From NCBI GenBank assembly GCA_021833825.1, contig JAKBEL010000017.1, forward strand, positions 1 through 64,000: a DNA stretch of 64,000 nucleotides, written 5' to 3'. The position numbers were made by a program, and so were the translations under genes. This document shows positions 23,280 through 31,397 of this stretch, piece by piece (positions within the stretch are counted from its first letter, which is position 1; each line of letters opens with the position of its first letter). This DNA comes from a bacterium (GTDB lineage: Bacteria; Babelota; Babeliae; Babelales; Vermiphilaceae). Under the pieces are notes generated by a model. That model did no database searches and was not told the origin of the DNA. It saw only the letters and a list, made by a program, of their open reading frames with translations.

Positions 23280-25130
23280 ATGATCCATATCAAAAATCTC
23301 CTATTGTCATTCGGCTCCCAGACCATATTTGATAATATCTCCTTAAATATCAATCAAAACGCCCGTATTGGCCTTGTAGGAAGAAATGGATCGGGTAAAT
23401 CAACATTACTTAAAGTGATCGGCAAACAACAACCTATTGATGGCGGAACCATATCTATTCTACCAGGTAAACGAATCGCCTATATGCCACAAGAGGTGGT
23501 TCTACTTTCAAACAAAACCATTTTGCAAGAGACTATGCAGGCGATTGCAGATATTAGCTCACTCAAAGATCGACTAACCTTCTTAGAGAGCAAAATAGAA
23601 CAGGGTGAGACCGATGAGGATACTGTTGAAGAATATGTAGAACTCCTTGAAAAGATGAGCGAACTTGAGCCAGAACAGTTACAAGCTCAGGCAGAACGTA
23701 TTCTGCTTGGATTAGGATTTAAAGAACAGCAACTAGAGCAACCGGTCAGCACCCTAAGTGTCGGCTGGAAAATGCGGATTGTTCTTGCAAAACTACTTCT
23801 TCAAAAGGCTGATTTCTATCTTTTTGACGAACCAACGAACCATTTGGATATCGTCGCTAAAGATTGGTTTATTAACTTCTTACAAAACTCAAATTTTGGT
23901 TTTCTTCTTGTCTGCCATGAACGGTATTTTCTTGATAAATTATGCACCAGCATTGTAGCTCTTGAACTGGGCGACGCCAAAGTTTATAACGGCAACTATA
24001 GTGCATTTGAAGTTCAATATGAGAGCGATATGGAGCAACTGCAGTCAGCTTATGCACAGCAGCAAAAAGAGATCAAACAGAAAATTGAGACCATCGAGCG
24101 ATATAAAGCAAAAGCAAGTAAAGCCAAAATGGCAAAGAGCATGCAAAGAAAGCTTGAAAATGTAGAACTAATATCACTACCGCCAGCACCTAAACAGGTA
24201 CATTTTCATTTTCCTGAAGTCAAACGTTCGGGGCGCATTGTGCTTGATGTTCATAAAGTTGCACATCGATTTGAAGATAAAAAACTGTTTGATAATGTTA
24301 ACCTCAAAATAGAGCGCGGGCAACGGGTTGCATTAGTTGCTGCAAATGGTGTGGGTAAAACAACGCTCTTTAATTTGATTGTTGGTAACTTACCGCTGCA
24401 ACATGGCTCGATAGAGTTCGGCCAGAATGTTGATTATACCATCTTTGCACAGGACCAAAACCAGTCGCTCGATCTTGATAAAAACATTTTTGAAAATGCA
24501 CAGAGCCGCTGCTCAAAGAAAAGCGAGCAACAAATTCGGTCATTCTTGGGAGCTTTTTTATTTAACGGTGATGACATCAAGAAAAAGATTAAAGTTCTTT
24601 CTGGGGGCGAAAAAAACCGCGTGGCGATGGCAATCGTCCTTATGCAGGACAGCAATTTCTTACTTCTTGACGAACCGACCAACCATCTTGATATGCCATC
24701 TAAAGAGACGCTTATTCGCGCACTCAAAGAGTTTCAAGGAACCATTCTATTTGTTTCTCACGATCATACATTCATCAATGAGCTGGCCAATATCGTAGTT
24801 GAACTGACTCCTCATGGCGCATTCAGCTATGAAGGCAACTATGATGCTTACCTGCATCAAAAAAATGAAGCTTTAGCAGGACAGCAAACTGTAACTGTTA
24901 AACCGACAGAATCAAAAAAAGAGAGCAAAAAAGAGGATGACCCTCAAAAAGATCTGCGCCTTCTTGAACAGAAAATTGCAAAATGCGAAAAAGAGTTAGC
25001 CAGGATTCAAGGCTCATTTGAAGATGTTGAATATGGCACTCCTGCATTCAAGCAGGTTGAGCAGAAATTATTGAAAAAACAGGCAGAACTTGATGCGTTA
25101 ACTGCTGAGTGGGAAGCAGCACAGGATTAA
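23280..25130 (+). CDS. ABC-F family ATP-binding cassette protein
   Basis: Soluble protein with two ABC domains and no membrane part, as in ribosome-acting ABC-F factors (Uup/EttA type). Walker A motifs are GRNGSGKST (residue 37) and ANGVGKTT (near 358). Signature motifs are LSVGWKMR and LSGGEKNR, and both Walker B motifs read FDEPTNHLD or LDEPTNHLD. The first signature has Val where Gly is usual. The Lys/Glu-rich interdomain linker (about 245-290) and the C-terminal coiled coil (about 550-616) match the Uup-like subgroup. Confidence 0.9.
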   Translation: MIHIKNLLLSFGSQTIFDNISLNINQNARIGLVGRNGSGKSTLLKVIGKQQPIDGGTISILPGKRIAYMPQEVVLLSNKTILQETMQAIADISSLKDRLTFLESKIEQGETDEDTVEEYVELLEKMSELEPEQLQAQAERILLGLGFKEQQLEQPVSTLSVGWKMRIVLAKLLLQKADFYLFDEPTNHLDIVAKDWFINFLQNSNFGFLLVCHERYFLDKLCTSIVALELGDAKVYNGNYSAFEVQYESDMEQLQSAYAQQQKEIKQKIETIERYKAKASKAKMAKSMQRKLENVELISLPPAPKQVHFHFPEVKRSGRIVLDVHKVAHRFEDKKLFDNVNLKIERGQRVALVAANGVGKTTLFNLIVGNLPLQHGSIEFGQNVDYTIFAQDQNQSLDLDKNIFENAQSRCSKKSEQQIRSFLGAFLFNGDDIKKKIKVLSGGEKNRVAMAIVLMQDSNFLLLDEPTNHLDMPSKETLIRALKEFQGTILFVSHDHTFINELANIVVELTPHGAFSYEGNYDAYLHQKNEALAGQQTVTVKPTESKKESKKEDDPQKDLRLLEQKIAKCEKELARIQGSFEDVEYGTPAFKQVEQKLLKKQAELDALTAEWEAAQD

Positions 25131-26062
25131 TACTTTAGGCTTTCCAACTCTTTACCAACCCTCTTAACCGATTTTGCATACTGATCAATATCCTCCCATG
25201 GATCACCAATACGTGAAATTCGTTTGAAGATATTTGATAGATTATATTTCTGTGGAGTCAAGGAACTATTGACCTCTTTCCATCCAAGTGGTGTTGCAAT
25301 AGGAGCCTTTTCACGCGCTCTCATTGCATACGGAGCAACAGCAGTCTGCGCCCATGCATTGCGCAGATAATCAACAAAGATCTTTCCTTTTCTTTTTTCT
25401 TTGCGGACTTCTAATGTTAACAGTTTTGGATACTGTTTGACCATTACTGCAGCAATATCACGCGCAATCTGGCGCACATCATCAAAGAGCAGTTCGCGCT
25501 TGATAGGAATATTAACATGCAATCCACGTGAACCGGTTGTCATAACAAAAGGAGCCAACCCTAACTCTTCAAGAAATGCTTTAAACAGTTTTGCCGCTTT
25601 GCACACTTGACTGAAATCTTTTCCCGATGGGTCAAAATCAAAAATAATGCGGTCAGGATAGTTCAATCTGTTAACGGTACTCAACCAGATATGTGGTGTT
25701 ATGACCGCCTGACTTGCAAGATACACTAAAGTTGCTGCATCATTGCATAACACGTGTGAGACCACTTTTGATGTATCACCCTTTTCCACTTCTACTCGCT
25801 TTATCCATGACGGGAAATAATCTGATGCATCTTTCTGGAAAAATCCTTCATGGCCGATCCCTTCTGGAAATCGCTGCATGCTGATCGGTCTGTTTTTAAG
25901 GTGCGGAACCATAACCGGTGCGATTCGCTGATAATACTCAACCATCTCTAGCTTCGTGATTCCCGACTTGGGAAACAGTATTTTATCTGGATTAGTAATA
26001 ATTATAGCACGTTTGCCAACATGCAACATCGTATCATTCATAGACTTTTGATTTCTTATCAT
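25127..26062 (-). CDS. LigD-type DNA polymerase/primase domain protein
   Basis: Stand-alone archaeo-eukaryotic-primase-type polymerase of the bacterial end-joining system. It fills gaps and adds nucleotides, often ribonucleotides, at DNA breaks. Visible motifs include ITNPDKILFPKSGITK, the metal-binding FDFDPS, TTGSRGLHVNIPI and the late APYAMRAREKAPIATPLGW. The length of 311 aa equals one domain; no ligase domain is fused. The start overlaps the phosphoesterase gene by 29 bases, so they are co-expressed. ATG 26041 is an alternative start. It ends convergently with the ABC-F gene (4-base overlap). Confidence 0.9.
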   Translation of the reverse strand: MIRNQKSMNDTMLHVGKRAIIITNPDKILFPKSGITKLEMVEYYQRIAPVMVPHLKNRPISMQRFPEGIGHEGFFQKDASDYFPSWIKRVEVEKGDTSKVVSHVLCNDAATLVYLASQAVITPHIWLSTVNRLNYPDRIIFDFDPSGKDFSQVCKAAKLFKAFLEELGLAPFVMTTGSRGLHVNIPIKRELLFDDVRQIARDIAAVMVKQYPKLLTLEVRKEKRKGKIFVDYLRNAWAQTAVAPYAMRAREKAPIATPLGWKEVNSSLTPQKYNLSNIFKRISRIGDPWEDIDQYAKSVKRVGKELESLKY

Positions 26063-26708
26063 CTTTAATTTGCTTCATGGTTCTATCGGTCAAAGCGGAA
26101 CGTTTTTGACTAGATACTGGATTTTTCTTTGCGCTTGCAAACTCATCCTTCATCTTGATCATCAACCAGTTCTTTTTAGAACCGGCATAATGAGTACGAA
26201 CAAACGCAAAAGCACCCTCTAATTTTTTCCCTTTTAGCTCAACCTCAATCTGACCCTGCTTGAGGCACTCTTGCATCGATTCATCTTTTATATTTTTATA
26301 GGTACCAATATCCCAGACCATCACCGTGCCAGCACCATAGCCCTCTTTAATGATTCCTTCAAAATCTGCATAATCGATGGGATGATCTTCTGTCTGCACC
26401 GCTAATCGTTTCACTCGCGGATTAAGTGATGGCCCTTTTGGCACCGCCCATGAGACCAGTACGTCACCAATTTGCAAACGAACATCATAATGCAAATGGC
26501 TCGCTTGATGCTCTTGAATAACAAATATCGGTTTTTTACGCGAACTTAATCTTTTTTTAATAGTTTTGCCACTCGGCTCAGGGGTTTTGGTGAAATCACG
26601 CTTAGAGCGATAGGTTGAAAGAGCCTCTCTCTTTTGTGCCATAAGATAACCTTCAGATCCCAATGCTATAGTAAGCATGAGCAGGGTTTTTATATGTTCC
26701 ATTTTCAT
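26034..26708 (-). CDS. LigD-type 3'-phosphoesterase domain protein
   Basis: Trims 3'-phosphates and ribonucleotides at DNA ends in LigD systems. Conserved residues are present: KRDFTKTPEPSG, then QEHQASHLHYDVRL (His/His/Asp metal site), SWAVPKGPS and EGYGAGTVMVWD. The catalytic family normally starts near ALSTYRSKRDF. ATG 26642 (GAAGG 6-7 nt upstream) would start MAQKREALST; the longer frame from 26708 adds a hydrophobic KTLLMLTIALGS segment resembling a signal peptide but lacks a good ribosome site. The shorter form is more likely for a DNA-repair enzyme. Confidence 0.85.
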   Translation of the reverse strand: MKMEHIKTLLMLTIALGSEGYLMAQKREALSTYRSKRDFTKTPEPSGKTIKKRLSSRKKPIFVIQEHQASHLHYDVRLQIGDVLVSWAVPKGPSLNPRVKRLAVQTEDHPIDYADFEGIIKEGYGAGTVMVWDIGTYKNIKDESMQECLKQGQIEVELKGKKLEGAFAFVRTHYAGSKKNWLMIKMKDEFASAKKNPVSSQKRSALTDRTMKQIKDDKKSKVYE

Positions 26709-27429: not shown

Positions 27430-27460
27430 AAAGAGCTCGATTAAAACCCGGGCCCTTTTT
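27430..27460 (+). terminator. Terminator between convergent genes
   Basis: AAAGAGCTCG and CGGGCCCTTT can pair with one mismatch and one wobble, followed by TTTTTATTTT. It overlaps the stop codon of the minus-strand ATPase gene. Confidence 0.5.
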
Positions 27461-28643
27461 ATTTTATCAGATCATCAATCAACGTTGCAGCATCTTTCCA
27501 TGTGACCACATTCCCTTTGGTGCGATGTTGAGCACGATCACCGGCATAGACAATATAGTTGTTTTCTGATGTGGTTTCACTCACCCCGTTCCAATTGAGC
27601 AACGAATCAAAAAATGATAACTGAATGGTCTCCCCTGATTTGATCTCAATAGGAGTTAACTTTTCAGCGTTATCAACAATGCAGTCAACTTCGATTCGCC
27701 CATTCATGTCACGCCAGAAATAGAGTGATGGCCGATAGCCAAGATTGGCGTACTGCTTCATGAAGTCTGAAATGATCAATGATTCAAATAGATGCCCACG
27801 AAATGGACTCAATGATAAAACCTCTTTTGATTGTATGCCAAGAAGTGAACATGCAACACCGGTATCATAAAAATAGAGCTTTGGTGTTTTAATTAACCGT
27901 TTATTATAATTTTTGTGATGCGGTTGCAAGAGAAAAATTATATAGCTTGCTTCAAGCACAGATAACCATTTTTTGATCGTACGTTGATCAACCCCAACCT
28001 GTGTTGCTATCTCAGCAATATTAAGGAGCTCCCCAATACGGCCAGCACATAAGCGCAAGAACTTTTCAAAAATGGCCATATCCCCAATATTGGTTAACTG
28101 CCTAACATCCCGTTCAATATATGTTCTGATATATGATGGATAAAAGTCTAATGAAGAGAGATCTTTTTTATAAAGCCGCGGGTATGCACCATCCAGCATC
28201 ATCTGATCAACAGATCGCAATAGCCTGTTCTTTTCAAGTTCATGCAATGATAATGGCAATAACGTTAAAATACCCACACGGCCAGCAAGTGATTGTGTGA
28301 TCGCCTGATTCATGAGAAAGTTCTGCGATCCGGTGAGCACAAAGTATCCAGGCCGATCTTTTTCATCCGATTGAACCTGAATATATGAAAGCAGTTCAGG
28401 AACATACTGAAACTCATCGATAATCATTCCATGGTTGTTTTCAAAATCTCTTAAAAACTTTTGTGGATCGGCACGCGCAAACTCTCTCATTTCTAAAACT
28501 TCTAAATTTATATATTGATGGTTTTTAAAGTGATGCTTTGCAATGGTTGTTTTTCCCGACTGACGTGGCCCTAAAATGGCAACCACCGGGAACTTCTTAT
28601 ATCGAACAAAAAGCTTTTCTAAATCTCTTTTATAAAAATCCAT
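27459..28643 (-). CDS. AAA ATPase with C-terminal DUF4143
   Basis: A member of the widespread AAA_14/DUF4143 family. It has Walker A GPRQSGKTT at residues 25-33, Walker B-like GMIIDEFQYVPELL near 70, and the sensor FVLTGSQNFL. A winged-helix-like middle and the DUF4143 domain (LFESLIISDF, then RDMNGRIEVDCIVD and PIEIKSGET, a nuclease-like D...E-x-K pattern) follow. The cellular role of the family is unclear; some members are proposed to act in defence or stress. Two palindromes sit just upstream of its start. Confidence 0.85.
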   Translation of the reverse strand: MDFYKRDLEKLFVRYKKFPVVAILGPRQSGKTTIAKHHFKNHQYINLEVLEMREFARADPQKFLRDFENNHGMIIDEFQYVPELLSYIQVQSDEKDRPGYFVLTGSQNFLMNQAITQSLAGRVGILTLLPLSLHELEKNRLLRSVDQMMLDGAYPRLYKKDLSSLDFYPSYIRTYIERDVRQLTNIGDMAIFEKFLRLCAGRIGELLNIAEIATQVGVDQRTIKKWLSVLEASYIIFLLQPHHKNYNKRLIKTPKLYFYDTGVACSLLGIQSKEVLSLSPFRGHLFESLIISDFMKQYANLGYRPSLYFWRDMNGRIEVDCIVDNAEKLTPIEIKSGETIQLSFFDSLLNWNGVSETTSENNYIVYAGDRAQHRTKGNVVTWKDAATLIDDLIK

Positions 28644-28654
28644 ACCTGAAATCC

Positions 28655-28689
28655 TGTGCTAATTTTACATTCAATGTTATTTTAGCACA
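28655..28689 (-). promoter_or_regulatory. Operator-like palindrome 1 of the ATPase gene
   Basis: TGTGCTAA (28655-28662) and TTAGCACA (28682-28689) are inverted repeats 12 bases before the ATPase start codon. The central TTTTACATTCAATG is shared with palindrome 2. Confidence 0.55.
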
Positions 28690-29006
28690 AATTTGACTAG
28701 AAAAGAAATAGTTTTAAAATATTATTCAAAACGTTTTTAAATCTAGGAATTTGCGAGAATTTTAGCCTTAAATCTCATAGGCCATTTTTTGTGCTAATTT
28801 TACATTCAATGCTAAATTAGCACAGAAAACAGTTTCGACTTTTTTAATTTCTGATTCTTATCTGCATCATCTATGATCGGACCACTCTATTAGTAAGCTA
28901 CTGTTATTGTAACCTTCTTTGGACTCGAAGGGGTTAATAACAAGAGTTTTTTATCTTCCCAAACGCCCCTTTTTTCAGACAAGCCCGGCTAATCCCGAGC
29001 TCTTTT
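28690..29006. other. Gap holding a second palindrome and a decayed AbiEi-type promoter copy
   Basis: Palindrome 2 (28790-28824) is TGTGCTAATTT / AAATTAGCACA, a perfect 11-bp inverted repeat. At 28882-28918 is a diverged copy of the AbiEi promoter-operator at 30531-30567 (AGTAAGCTACTGTTATTGTAACCTT), with the -35 lost. At 28982-29008 a weak hairpin and T-run (AGCCCGG / CCGAGCT) could be a plus-strand terminator. No gene was seen here. Confidence 0.5.
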
Positions 29007-29131
29007 TTACCTATTTTCAAAAACAGAAAACTCGCACAATCTTTCAAAGCCAAGCTTTTCATACAGTCCAAGCGCATCTTTCTGCGCAATGAGCACTGCA
29101 GTAGCATAACCCGCCTCTTGAGAGCGGATCA
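29007..29131 (-). pseudogene. Duplicated 3' tail of the GNAT acetyltransferase gene
   Basis: These about 125 bases match 30597-30721, the 3' end of the intact acetyltransferase gene including its TAA stop, with only a handful of mismatches. The copy begins directly after the abiEii stop codon; the last bases of abiEii (TGATCC) are shared with it. It encodes no complete domain. With the intact gene it flanks the AbiE module as a direct repeat about 1.59 kb apart. Confidence 0.85.
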
Positions 29132-29986
29132 AACATTTCTCATTTGATTATCAAGATCATCTATTAAATAGACCATAAAATCCCAAAAGTTTTCTTGCTT
29201 GAGCATCTGATCAACCTGTTCAACCGATAAGAAGCGGCGCATCTCAGCCTGAAATGCTGTTGCTACTGCAGGTTCTTTGAGTAATTTTTTGCGCTCACTA
29301 AAGAGCTCTAAAAAATCATGCCTTGTTTTGTGACGATCTTTTAATTTATCATTGATCAATGCTAGCCGAGGCTTTATCCCTTGACCATGTAGCCAAACAA
29401 TATCCCATAGATCACGATATTTAATGCGATTTGCTCGCAAAGCAAATGCGATAATTTTGTCTGTATAAATCTCTTCGCGGCTTTCAACCTGTATGATCAA
29501 TCCACTAGTGCCCATATCAATGCCATAAGGGTTTAAGAGCATCATGGGCCGTTTTTCATATGATGGTATAGCGCAAATATCAATATGAATGCGCTGAGCA
29601 GGAACATGTTTTGATTCAGGTCTTGTCTCTATTTTAATCTTCCATGTATCAACATTCTTCTTATCTTTAACCGGTTCGCTCACCACCACCTTTAAGCCAT
29701 ACTTCTCTTCTAAATTGGTAGTTAAGATCTGCCCCATTGCTGATAGATCGGATCGTGAAAAATCTGCACCGCCAGTAAAATCAAGATCCTCGCTCAAACG
29801 CACTCCACCATAGCAATGCCTTAGGCAAGTCCCTCCGATAAAGACAAGGTTTTTGAGCAGATCATTGGCACTCAAAATCTTGAGAATATCATGATGTAAT
29901 AACTCTTTTTCTATCACCATTCTTAATGGGGACCATTGTGGATTATTTTTTAAAGCTTCTGTGACTAATGTATCAAATAAATTCAT
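29129..29986 (-). CDS. AbiEii/AbiGii-family nucleotidyltransferase toxin
   Basis: Toxin half of a type IV-like AbiE system that causes abortive infection or growth arrest, by nucleotidyltransferase activity that in studied relatives targets tRNA or nucleotides. The fold signature FIGGTCLRHCYGGVRLSEDLDFTG near residue 50 carries the Gly-Gly and the metal-binding D-L-D. A later conserved EEIYTDKIIAFALR segment is typical. The start overlaps the antitoxin gene by 14 bases. The stop lies exactly at the edge of the duplicated acetyltransferase tail. Confidence 0.85.
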   Translation of the reverse strand: MNLFDTLVTEALKNNPQWSPLRMVIEKELLHHDILKILSANDLLKNLVFIGGTCLRHCYGGVRLSEDLDFTGGADFSRSDLSAMGQILTTNLEEKYGLKVVVSEPVKDKKNVDTWKIKIETRPESKHVPAQRIHIDICAIPSYEKRPMMLLNPYGIDMGTSGLIIQVESREEIYTDKIIAFALRANRIKYRDLWDIVWLHGQGIKPRLALINDKLKDRHKTRHDFLELFSERKKLLKEPAVATAFQAEMRRFLSVEQVDQMLKQENFWDFMVYLIDDLDNQMRNV

Positions 29987-30521
29987 GAACCATATCCCAA
30001 TCTATTAAATCACTGTTTCTACGCGTTGCTTTCATATCCCTAATAGCTAATGCAACCGATGCGCGCCATAAACCACACCGAGCATCATATGAAAGTTCAT
30101 TCATAATATCGGTTGGTTTTTGACTCGTATGAACAAACTCTATCGTGCCAAATTGGCCACACGAAATGATCGCACTGCAACCTGAGGACATAATAGTAAT
30201 CCATTGCATAGGAACCTGAGAAATAACCCCCGCGTCACTTAAGGCTGTCTCAAGACTGATATAATTAAAAGCTTCTGCTCTTAAAAGCGCTACTGCATGA
30301 AACAATAACAATCCATCTGATGGCATAGCATTTTTATAAAGATAAAGGCCTCGGCAGACTCGTGTCAGATAGTTCTTTGTAACAGCTCTACTTAGTAAAG
30401 TCTTGAAAGCAGAATCAGATAGCTCAGGCAAAAGGGCCCTAAAATCCTGCAATAAAAAAAGATAATGCTCATTGGTGGCATGTTGCTGCAACCAATCTAT
30501 TAATATTTTCATAGAACTCAT
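29973..30521 (-). CDS. AbiEi-type antitoxin (transcriptional repressor)
   Basis: N-terminal winged-helix domain (FRALLPELSDSAFKTLLSRAVTKNYLTRVCRGLYLY) followed by the AbiEi C-terminal domain, as in antitoxins that neutralise AbiEii and repress their own operon. I place the start at ATG 30521 because the promoter at 30553-30582 would lie inside any longer frame; ATG 30512 is another option. A GTTAC-N7-GTAAC palindrome overlapping the -10 is a likely autoregulatory site. Confidence 0.8.
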   Translation of the reverse strand: MSSMKILIDWLQQHATNEHYLFLLQDFRALLPELSDSAFKTLLSRAVTKNYLTRVCRGLYLYKNAMPSDGLLLFHAVALLRAEAFNYISLETALSDAGVISQVPMQWITIMSSGCSAIISCGQFGTIEFVHTSQKPTDIMNELSYDARCGLWRASVALAIRDMKATRRNSDLIDWDMVHEFI

Positions 30522-30543
30522 AAAAACAATCACTCCATAGTAA

Positions 30544-30582
30544 GTTACTATTATTGTAACCTTCCCCAGAGTCAAATGTCAA
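30544..30582 (-). promoter_or_regulatory. AbiE promoter with overlapping palindromic operator
   Basis: On the minus strand TTGACA (30582-30577) and TACAAT (30558-30553) are separated by 18 bases. GTTAC-N7-GTAAC (30544-30560) covers the -10. A degenerate copy lies at 28897-28913. Confidence 0.6.
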
Positions 30583-30596
30583 TAAAATGAGATCTT

Positions 30597-31397
30597 TTAT
30601 CGATTTTCAAAAACAGAAAATTCGCACAATCTTTCAAAGCCAAGCTTTTCATACAGTCCAAGCGCATCTTTCTGCGCAATGAGCACCGCAGTGGCATAAC
30701 CCGCCTCTTGAGATCGGATCAATAACTCTTGAATCATTGCGGTTGCAAAGCCACGCCTTCTATAACGTGAACGCGTAACAAGATTGTAAATCCCTGCCAC
30801 ATCACTGTGTAATGTAACAGAACCGGCACATACTGGTGTTTCATCCAAGTAACCGACATAGAACTGTTCATAATCTGATAATGAGAACTCAATATCTTGA
30901 AATTGATGATACCACTCTTGTGCTGTAGAATCCCGCTGATGCAGTTCAATCATAAGATTGGCATAATCCTCTTTCTGCTCACTCTCAAGAACACGTTCAA
31001 TACGCAGTTCAATCTGTTCGTAACCATAATGCTCTATTACAAGTGACATACCAACATAAGTCTCAGTTTCGGTCAAACCTGCACCTTCTAAAATATGTGG
31101 CAGCTCTGCTGGCATATCATCCGGGCAGACCCACCATGAAAATGGCATCTGTTCACGTTGAAAATATGCAATCGTACTATCGACCACTTCTGATGCATTC
31201 TCATCTTGAAGTCGCGCCTTAAATACAAGGTTTAATGAACTATCTTGCACATGGCTATCGATCATCATAATCTCTTGAGCACGCAGCACCGTGCATGATG
31301 GCAACCGTTCTGGCAAAAAGAGCATATGCGCTGCCATGTTCTCTTGCATTGATGTAATAACTTTTAAATCATCTTCCGATGAGGTCAGTATAGCCAT
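30597..31397 (-). CDS. GNAT family N-acetyltransferase
   Basis: The C-terminal GNAT fold is clear: VTLHSDVAGIYNLVTRSRYRRRGFATAMIQELL (acetyl-CoA loop RRRGFA, near 215), then AVLIAQKDALGLYEKLGFERL. The N-terminal 130 residues look like a second, degenerate GNAT-like half. The substrate is unknown. It follows leuS by two bases and is probably co-transcribed. Its last 125 bases are repeated downstream beyond the AbiE genes. Confidence 0.83.
   Translation of the reverse strand: MAILTSSEDDLKVITSMQENMAAHMLFLPERLPSCTVLRAQEIMMIDSHVQDSSLNLVFKARLQDENASEVVDSTIAYFQREQMPFSWWVCPDDMPAELPHILEGAGLTETETYVGMSLVIEHYGYEQIELRIERVLESEQKEDYANLMIELHQRDSTAQEWYHQFQDIEFSLSDYEQFYVGYLDETPVCAGSVTLHSDVAGIYNLVTRSRYRRRGFATAMIQELLIRSQEAGYATAVLIAQKDALGLYEKLGFERLCEFSVFENR

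Follow-up and report, generated by a model that had tools for sequence, protein, structure and literature searches.

A solitary abiE toxin-antitoxin operon in a Dependentiae draft genome (multi-contig, 1.23 Mb) lies between two diverged copies of the 3' end of a GNAT-family acetyltransferase gene. We judge that, on balance, this arrangement arose by an insertion that used no recombinase and took the neighbouring gene as its anchor, with a homologous join at one end, an illegitimate join at the other and the resident gene tail left behind as a relic. The elements observed directly are the two coding-type tails, a relic of the AbiE operator, a shortened AbiEii toxin, the recurrence of the pattern at other loci and empty sites in Pseudomonas. 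The question that they address is how solitary toxin-antitoxin modules move without a plasmid, phage or integrase.

The abiE operon and its neighbourhood

In the analysed stretch of 64,000 nt (hereafter the window), the minus strand carries, in order, leuS, the GNAT acetyltransferase gene, a promoter-operator, abiEi, abiEii, a copy of the GNAT tail, a copy of the operator and a gene for a DUF4143/AAA_14 ATPase (Table 1). An earlier sequence-only reading of this DNA had proposed the same order of tail, promoter, abiEi, abiEii, tail copy and promoter copy, and was right in all essentials. The abiEi reading frame, which starts at the ATG at 30521, overlaps that of abiEii by 14 nt (29973-29986) and is preceded by a strong promoter-like site of sigma-70 type. 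Upstream of abiEi lies an inverted repeat of ~41 bp (consensus ACTCAACAGTAAGTTACACTAAGTGTAACTTTCTGTAGAGT) that is conserved in ~50 homologous loci and constitutes a predicted operator; the AbiEi protein of Streptococcus agalactiae binds inverted repeats within its own promoter (PMC3985639). The operon formed by operator, abiEi and abiEii is apparently an intact type IV toxin-antitoxin module. A search of solved structures returned no sequence match. Carriage of abiE by phages or plasmids was considered and rejected, only distant AbiEii proteins (41% or less) being found in these elements.

Table 1. Features of the abiE locus in the window
Feature	Position	Strand	Basis or remark
GNAT-family acetyltransferase gene; 3' end is the putative insertion site; leuS upstream	30597..31397	-	Pfam Acetyltransf_1 E=1e-11
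Proximal (working) GNAT tail, 128 nt	30595..30722	-	repeat search; encodes the same peptide as the distal tail over 42 codons, stop included
abiE promoter-like site, TTGACA - 18 - TACAAT, 14 nt past the GNAT stop	30553..30582	-	scan, 11/12 matches; consensus match only
AbiE operator (predicted), inverted repeat overlapping the -10 region	30532..30572	-	family matrix score 39
abiEi, antitoxin and repressor	29973..30521	-	NCBIfam NF047376 TAA_AbiEi 190 bits, cut-off 150; PADLOC AbiEi E=3e-62
abiEii, nucleotidyltransferase toxin, 285 aa, C-terminus shortened	29129..29986	-	Pfam AbiEii PF08843 110 bits, cut-off 22.5
Right junction TTGATCC; the abiEii stop (TGA) falls within the first bases of the tail copy and is not in the GNAT frame	29127..29133	-	sequence reading
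Distal (relic) GNAT tail	29005..29132	-	128 nt, 95% identical to proximal tail; all coding differences synonymous
~57 nt between tail and operator, distal copy only	28948..29004	-	comparison of copies
Relic AbiE operator; half-site decayed, -35 lost; no abiE genes follow	28885..28925	-	matrix 6.7; null (shuffled-sequence) maximum 2.4

The module is patchily distributed, being missing from same-genus and same-family genomes. The leuS-GNAT order is also present in the same-genus genome G002 (locus L003), with other DNA 3' of the two genes. The comparison with related genomes lacking AbiE that had been suggested earlier could be made to this extent, the same-genus GNAT protein being only ~50% identical in amino acids to that of the window; empty sites with one copy of the target were found at the Pseudomonas cobF gene described below.

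On the distal side, the ATPase gene (27459-28643) matches the PADLOC candidate PDC-S01, and two 35-bp copies (91%) of the inverted-repeat sequence TGTGCTAATTTTACATTCAATGTTATTTTAGCACA upstream of it, at 28655-28689 and 28790-28824, are possible operators. Further along, at 25127-26708 on the minus strand, a LigD polymerase domain and a 3'-phosphoesterase domain are encoded by two overlapping genes.

Two diverged gene tails, a relic operator and a shortened toxin

The repeat of the GNAT tail past abiEii, originally described as 125 bases long, was borne out and runs 3 nt further; the module is flanked on both sides by host-derived direct repeats in the 100-bp range (128 nt, 95% identical). A whole-genome search found only these two copies of the tail, other matches being at chance level. 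Over the 42 codons there are 6 nucleotide differences in 5 codons, and 6/6 are synonymous (P=0.002-0.008 under a null in which the resident tail is duplicated and the copy drifts while the working gene is under selection). Furthermore, the tails differ at 6/126 nt and the adjacent intergenic DNA at 19/71; on this intergenic scale, a duplication within one genome would be expected to show ~22 tail differences, compared to the 6 observed. Given tails that differ only synonymously in their coding part, next to intergenic DNA that has diverged much further, we read them most simply as two alleles of the GNAT gene from different strains rather than as products of a plain tandem duplication.

A tandem duplication with subsequent loss had been put forward earlier as an alternative. 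If it took in tail, operator and abiE within a single genome and the second abiE pair then disappeared, it would account for a distal side that has tail and operator in the same order and for a junction that resembles a duplication join. However, the exclusively synonymous tail differences (P<0.01), a tail that has changed too little compared with the intergenic DNA beside it and the lack of any abiE remnant beyond the distal operator (tblastn) all speak against it. We regard it as improbable, and among the recombination models it is the least compatible with the tail data. A tandem duplication between the alleles of two strains, or one with allelic exchange afterwards, is possible.

The decayed AbiE promoter-operator copy previously noticed beyond the distal tail was confirmed by its family matrix score, which lies well below that of the proximal operator and above the maximum for shuffled sequence (Table 1). 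The two operators share a 27-nt repeat (28891-28917 and 30538-30564, 93%), and a search of the 1.23-Mb genome returned the operator core exactly two times and a reversed-pattern control 0 times. Alignment of both promoter copies, which had been recommended, shows that the distal one carries the ~57 extra nt between tail and operator and has lost the -35 element. An old AbiE operator behind the relic tail makes it probable that the site was occupied by an abiE module earlier; and since the resident site would already have had such an operator, two strains that each had the module may have recombined, the old genes being lost later.

Inside the ~57 nt peculiar to the distal copy, a hairpin AGCCCGG-CTAATC-CCGAGCT followed by a T run (window 28960-29010, plus strand) looks terminator-like by eye and was not listed by an automatic scan. 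Solo AbiE operators located 3' of abiEii and with no abiE genes after them were also seen at other loci (L041:8334, L042:8180, L044:7616 and L058:6909), possibly as relics of lost modules, and two tandem operators lie upstream in L052, L054, L067, L077 and L079.

At the right junction, the 7 nt TTGATCC are common to both sides. The earlier statement that the tail copy begins exactly at the abiEii stop holds in that the stop lies at the repeat start, the repeat itself starting one base before the TGA (29131-29129). Most AbiEii homologs have 298-300 aa and end in F[KRM]M, and the window protein ends 13-15 residues short of this usual end, a shortening at the junction that had gone unmentioned, as had the recurrence of the pattern at many loci. 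The F-x-M end is kept in 57 AbiEii homologs and is not found in 20 others, a number that includes near-duplicates and two early stops; many of these 20 carry differing short ends. Such varied C-termini fit repeated illegitimate joins close to the abiEii end, and a lineage-specific shortening in the clade nearest the window is possible.

Recurrence at other toxin-antitoxin loci

The allelic reading of the window tails draws on small numbers (six changes) at one locus in one strain of this species, and we therefore examined other abiE loci. The sample comprised 57 abiE relatives from Dependentiae, Midichloriaceae, Legionellales, Verrucomicrobia, Deltaproteobacteria, Pseudomonas and others, with one genome per species scanned, and 56 of them were testable for flank repeats. 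Each locus was searched for direct repeats shared by the 400 nt preceding abiEi and the 350 nt following abiEii, using positions of the same geometry on the same contigs as controls. Flanking direct repeats were present at 14/56 abiE loci (the window included, and the loci not all independent) and at 7/821 control positions (Fisher P=3e-13); after collapsing by AbiEii similarity, they were present in 11/36 clusters. The remaining 42/56 loci had no detectable flank repeat.

Not all 14 repeats are gene tails: those of L032 and L069 are possibly of other types and were excluded from the gene-tail evidence, that of L058 is the operator itself, and that of L029 measures only 29 nt. The clear gene-end cases besides the window are L056, L057, L070, L024 and a group at the Pseudomonas cobF gene, to which L126 adds another. 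At L056, the repeat derives from a phosphatase-like gene (tail peptide A-D/E-D-L-x-AAARYVL), and the copies differ by 5 synonymous and 2 nonsynonymous changes (5/7, P=0.04). L057 contains three tails of one molybdopterin-enzyme-like gene (PFTPEKVLNAI[RK]AVK), located at the gene's own end, before the operator and after abiEii; its two relics differ from each other by 9 synonymous and 2 nonsynonymous changes (9/11, P=5e-4). At L070, a tail plus terminator is duplicated (59 bp, 96.6%) and the copy starts inside the abiEii stop codon, as in the window, while at L024 the duplicated element is a terminator (72 bp, 98.6%). The copies at these last two loci are nearly identical, and they either do not code or have too little coding sequence to tell where they came from.

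The target genes of these abiE loci are unrelated to one another, which weighs against site-specific integration with the tail as attachment site, whether at a gene 3' end or as an integron cassette. Gene 3' ends are common attachment sites, and the gene end is restored here. Nevertheless, a scan of neighbouring proteins (part of the window ORFs) turned up no integrase, and the tail shows no attC-type hairpin (z=-0.8). The site-specific recombination entertained by the sequence-only reading is accordingly very improbable, and an integron cassette was rejected for the window, where the tail has no special fold and codes for GNAT.

The cobF group provides both occupied and empty sites. In L059, L065, L066 and L068, abiE is located between a working cobF tail and a relic tail, and L087 and L089 have a single tail at the 3' end of cobF, followed by other occupants. 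Together with the absence of the module from same-genus and same-family genomes of the window host, these single-tail sites support the initial suggestion that the module was inserted by recombination at a gene 3' end. The relics of L059, L065 and L066 are mutually related, and were therefore counted as one event. Those of L059 and L066 match the cobF tails of other species (84-86%) better than the tail of their own genome (73-75%), and for those of L065 and L068 the own genome's tail is the best or equal best match, the L068 relic being closest to its own tail, as simple duplication predicts. At L091 (1150-1202), a relic cobF tail lies beside an unrelated small gene, with no abiE; the part downstream of this relic matches the usual intergenic DNA, and the working gene is followed by something else. 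Because it is a relic without abiE, and has the usual intergenic DNA behind it, L091 shows that tail relics can also be left by cargo other than abiE, and that of the two tails the relic can be the more ancient.

The isolates in this group also bear on an artefact in which metagenome assembly merged the contigs of two strains. The window comes from a multi-contig draft, and mixed strains could yield two alleles, but the same architecture is found in named isolates such as Pseudomonas chengduensis DSM 26382 (L066) and the 7 nt shared at the window join are, we infer, too short for an assembler overlap, so that an artefact of this kind is highly unlikely.

The small and precise module, with near-identical copies at L024 (72 bp, 98.6%) and L070 (59 bp, 96.6%), would also be consistent with a long target duplication, in which the operon inserts while duplicating ~130 nt of its target and the working GNAT gene is later replaced by a diverged allele; long duplications of variable length have been described for restriction-modification genes (PMC3874152, PMC3031569). 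Copies made from one target should be identical at birth, so this explanation needs a later allelic exchange to yield the synonymous pattern. The window copies show synonymous-only differences (P<0.01 under that null), and such an exchange, which could mask identity, would have to be postulated separately for the window, L057, L059 and L066. Moreover, the duplicated part in the window includes the AbiE operator, which is not expected of a virgin target. We therefore consider target duplication rather unlikely.

The tail pattern is not specific to AbiE: ParE modules of Pseudomonas have flank repeats at 5/30 loci (one on a short contig, some very short). At two of these ParE loci, L174 and L153, a copy of neighbouring sequence follows the toxin, and the copy at L174 is a partly deleted transporter-gene tail.

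Proposed mechanism and comparison with known systems

For the anchored insertion that we favour, the donor, the two kinds of join and the order of events are suggested by the anatomy of the sequence. A related strain would have supplied a DNA fragment in which that strain's GNAT tail preceded the operator and abiE. Homologous recombination, with which the allelic tails are compatible, would have joined this fragment to the recipient on the GNAT side; at the other end, the abiEii 3' end would have joined the resident GNAT tail at the short microhomology TTGATCC. This join would have trimmed the last abiEii codons and supplied a stop codon from the tail, and the resident tail would have been displaced, together with its downstream DNA, as the relic. 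Non-homologous end joining was rejected as the source of the join: although LigD polymerase and phosphoesterase domains are encoded nearby, a Pfam PF02735 search found no Ku gene in the genome. A partial ComEC match in the host genome is weak evidence for DNA uptake.

More tentatively, tail-anchored insertion may be the main route by which solitary toxin-antitoxin operons such as AbiE and ParE move within and between species. If so, these operons would travel with the end of the adjoining host gene as their homology while the resident tail stays behind, and stacked gene tails and solo operators would be a record of repeated arrivals and losses. Gene-tail relics would be the trace of each arrival, revealing the anchor gene and making the process testable. 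Likewise, if the allelic reading is correct, part of the target duplication ascribed to addiction modules would be recombination with a relative's gene end. No report of flank duplication at AbiE was found in the literature searched, most subscription journals being outside its scope. Long target duplication is already known for restriction-modification genes; the recurrence at AbiE and the allelic tails are notable, not unprecedented.

The window operon resembles the AbiE type IV system (Dy et al. 2014, PMC3985639) in its adjacent genes for an AbiEi-family antitoxin and a nucleotidyltransferase toxin and in its inverted-repeat operator at the promoter. It differs in that its AbiEii lacks the last ~13 residues of most close homologs and in the second, decayed operator downstream; toxin neutralisation and phage defence, which characterise that system, are putative functions here. 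The insertion of restriction-modification genes with long target duplication (Nobusato et al. 2000 and Furuta et al. 2010, as cited in PMC3874152 and PMC3031569) is the closest known parallel to the insertion and is similar, as far as those citing papers describe it, in placing a small two-gene addiction module between ~100-bp direct repeats of host sequence without a transposase. Here, the module is a toxin-antitoxin pair, and the synonymous differences between the gene tails that form the repeats favour two alleles over a copied target.

Homology-facilitated illegitimate recombination has been documented experimentally (de Vries and Wackernagel 2002 and Prudhomme et al. 2002, as cited in PMC5361080; PMC3240628 for E. 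coli conjugation), and its combination of a homologous anchor join with an illegitimate microhomology join would explain both ends of the window module; in the accounts given by these sources it is known from laboratory events, whereas our case is read from anatomy. The same mechanism has been invoked for the displaced effector-immunity modules of the Vibrio cholerae T6SS and their orphan immunity arrays (PMC5361080), in which, as here, successive modules lie behind a conserved anchor and the older 3' part is pushed downstream. In Vibrio, however, immunity genes are left behind whole; the abiE locus, whose module is an operon in its own right, retains an operator and the end of a gene.
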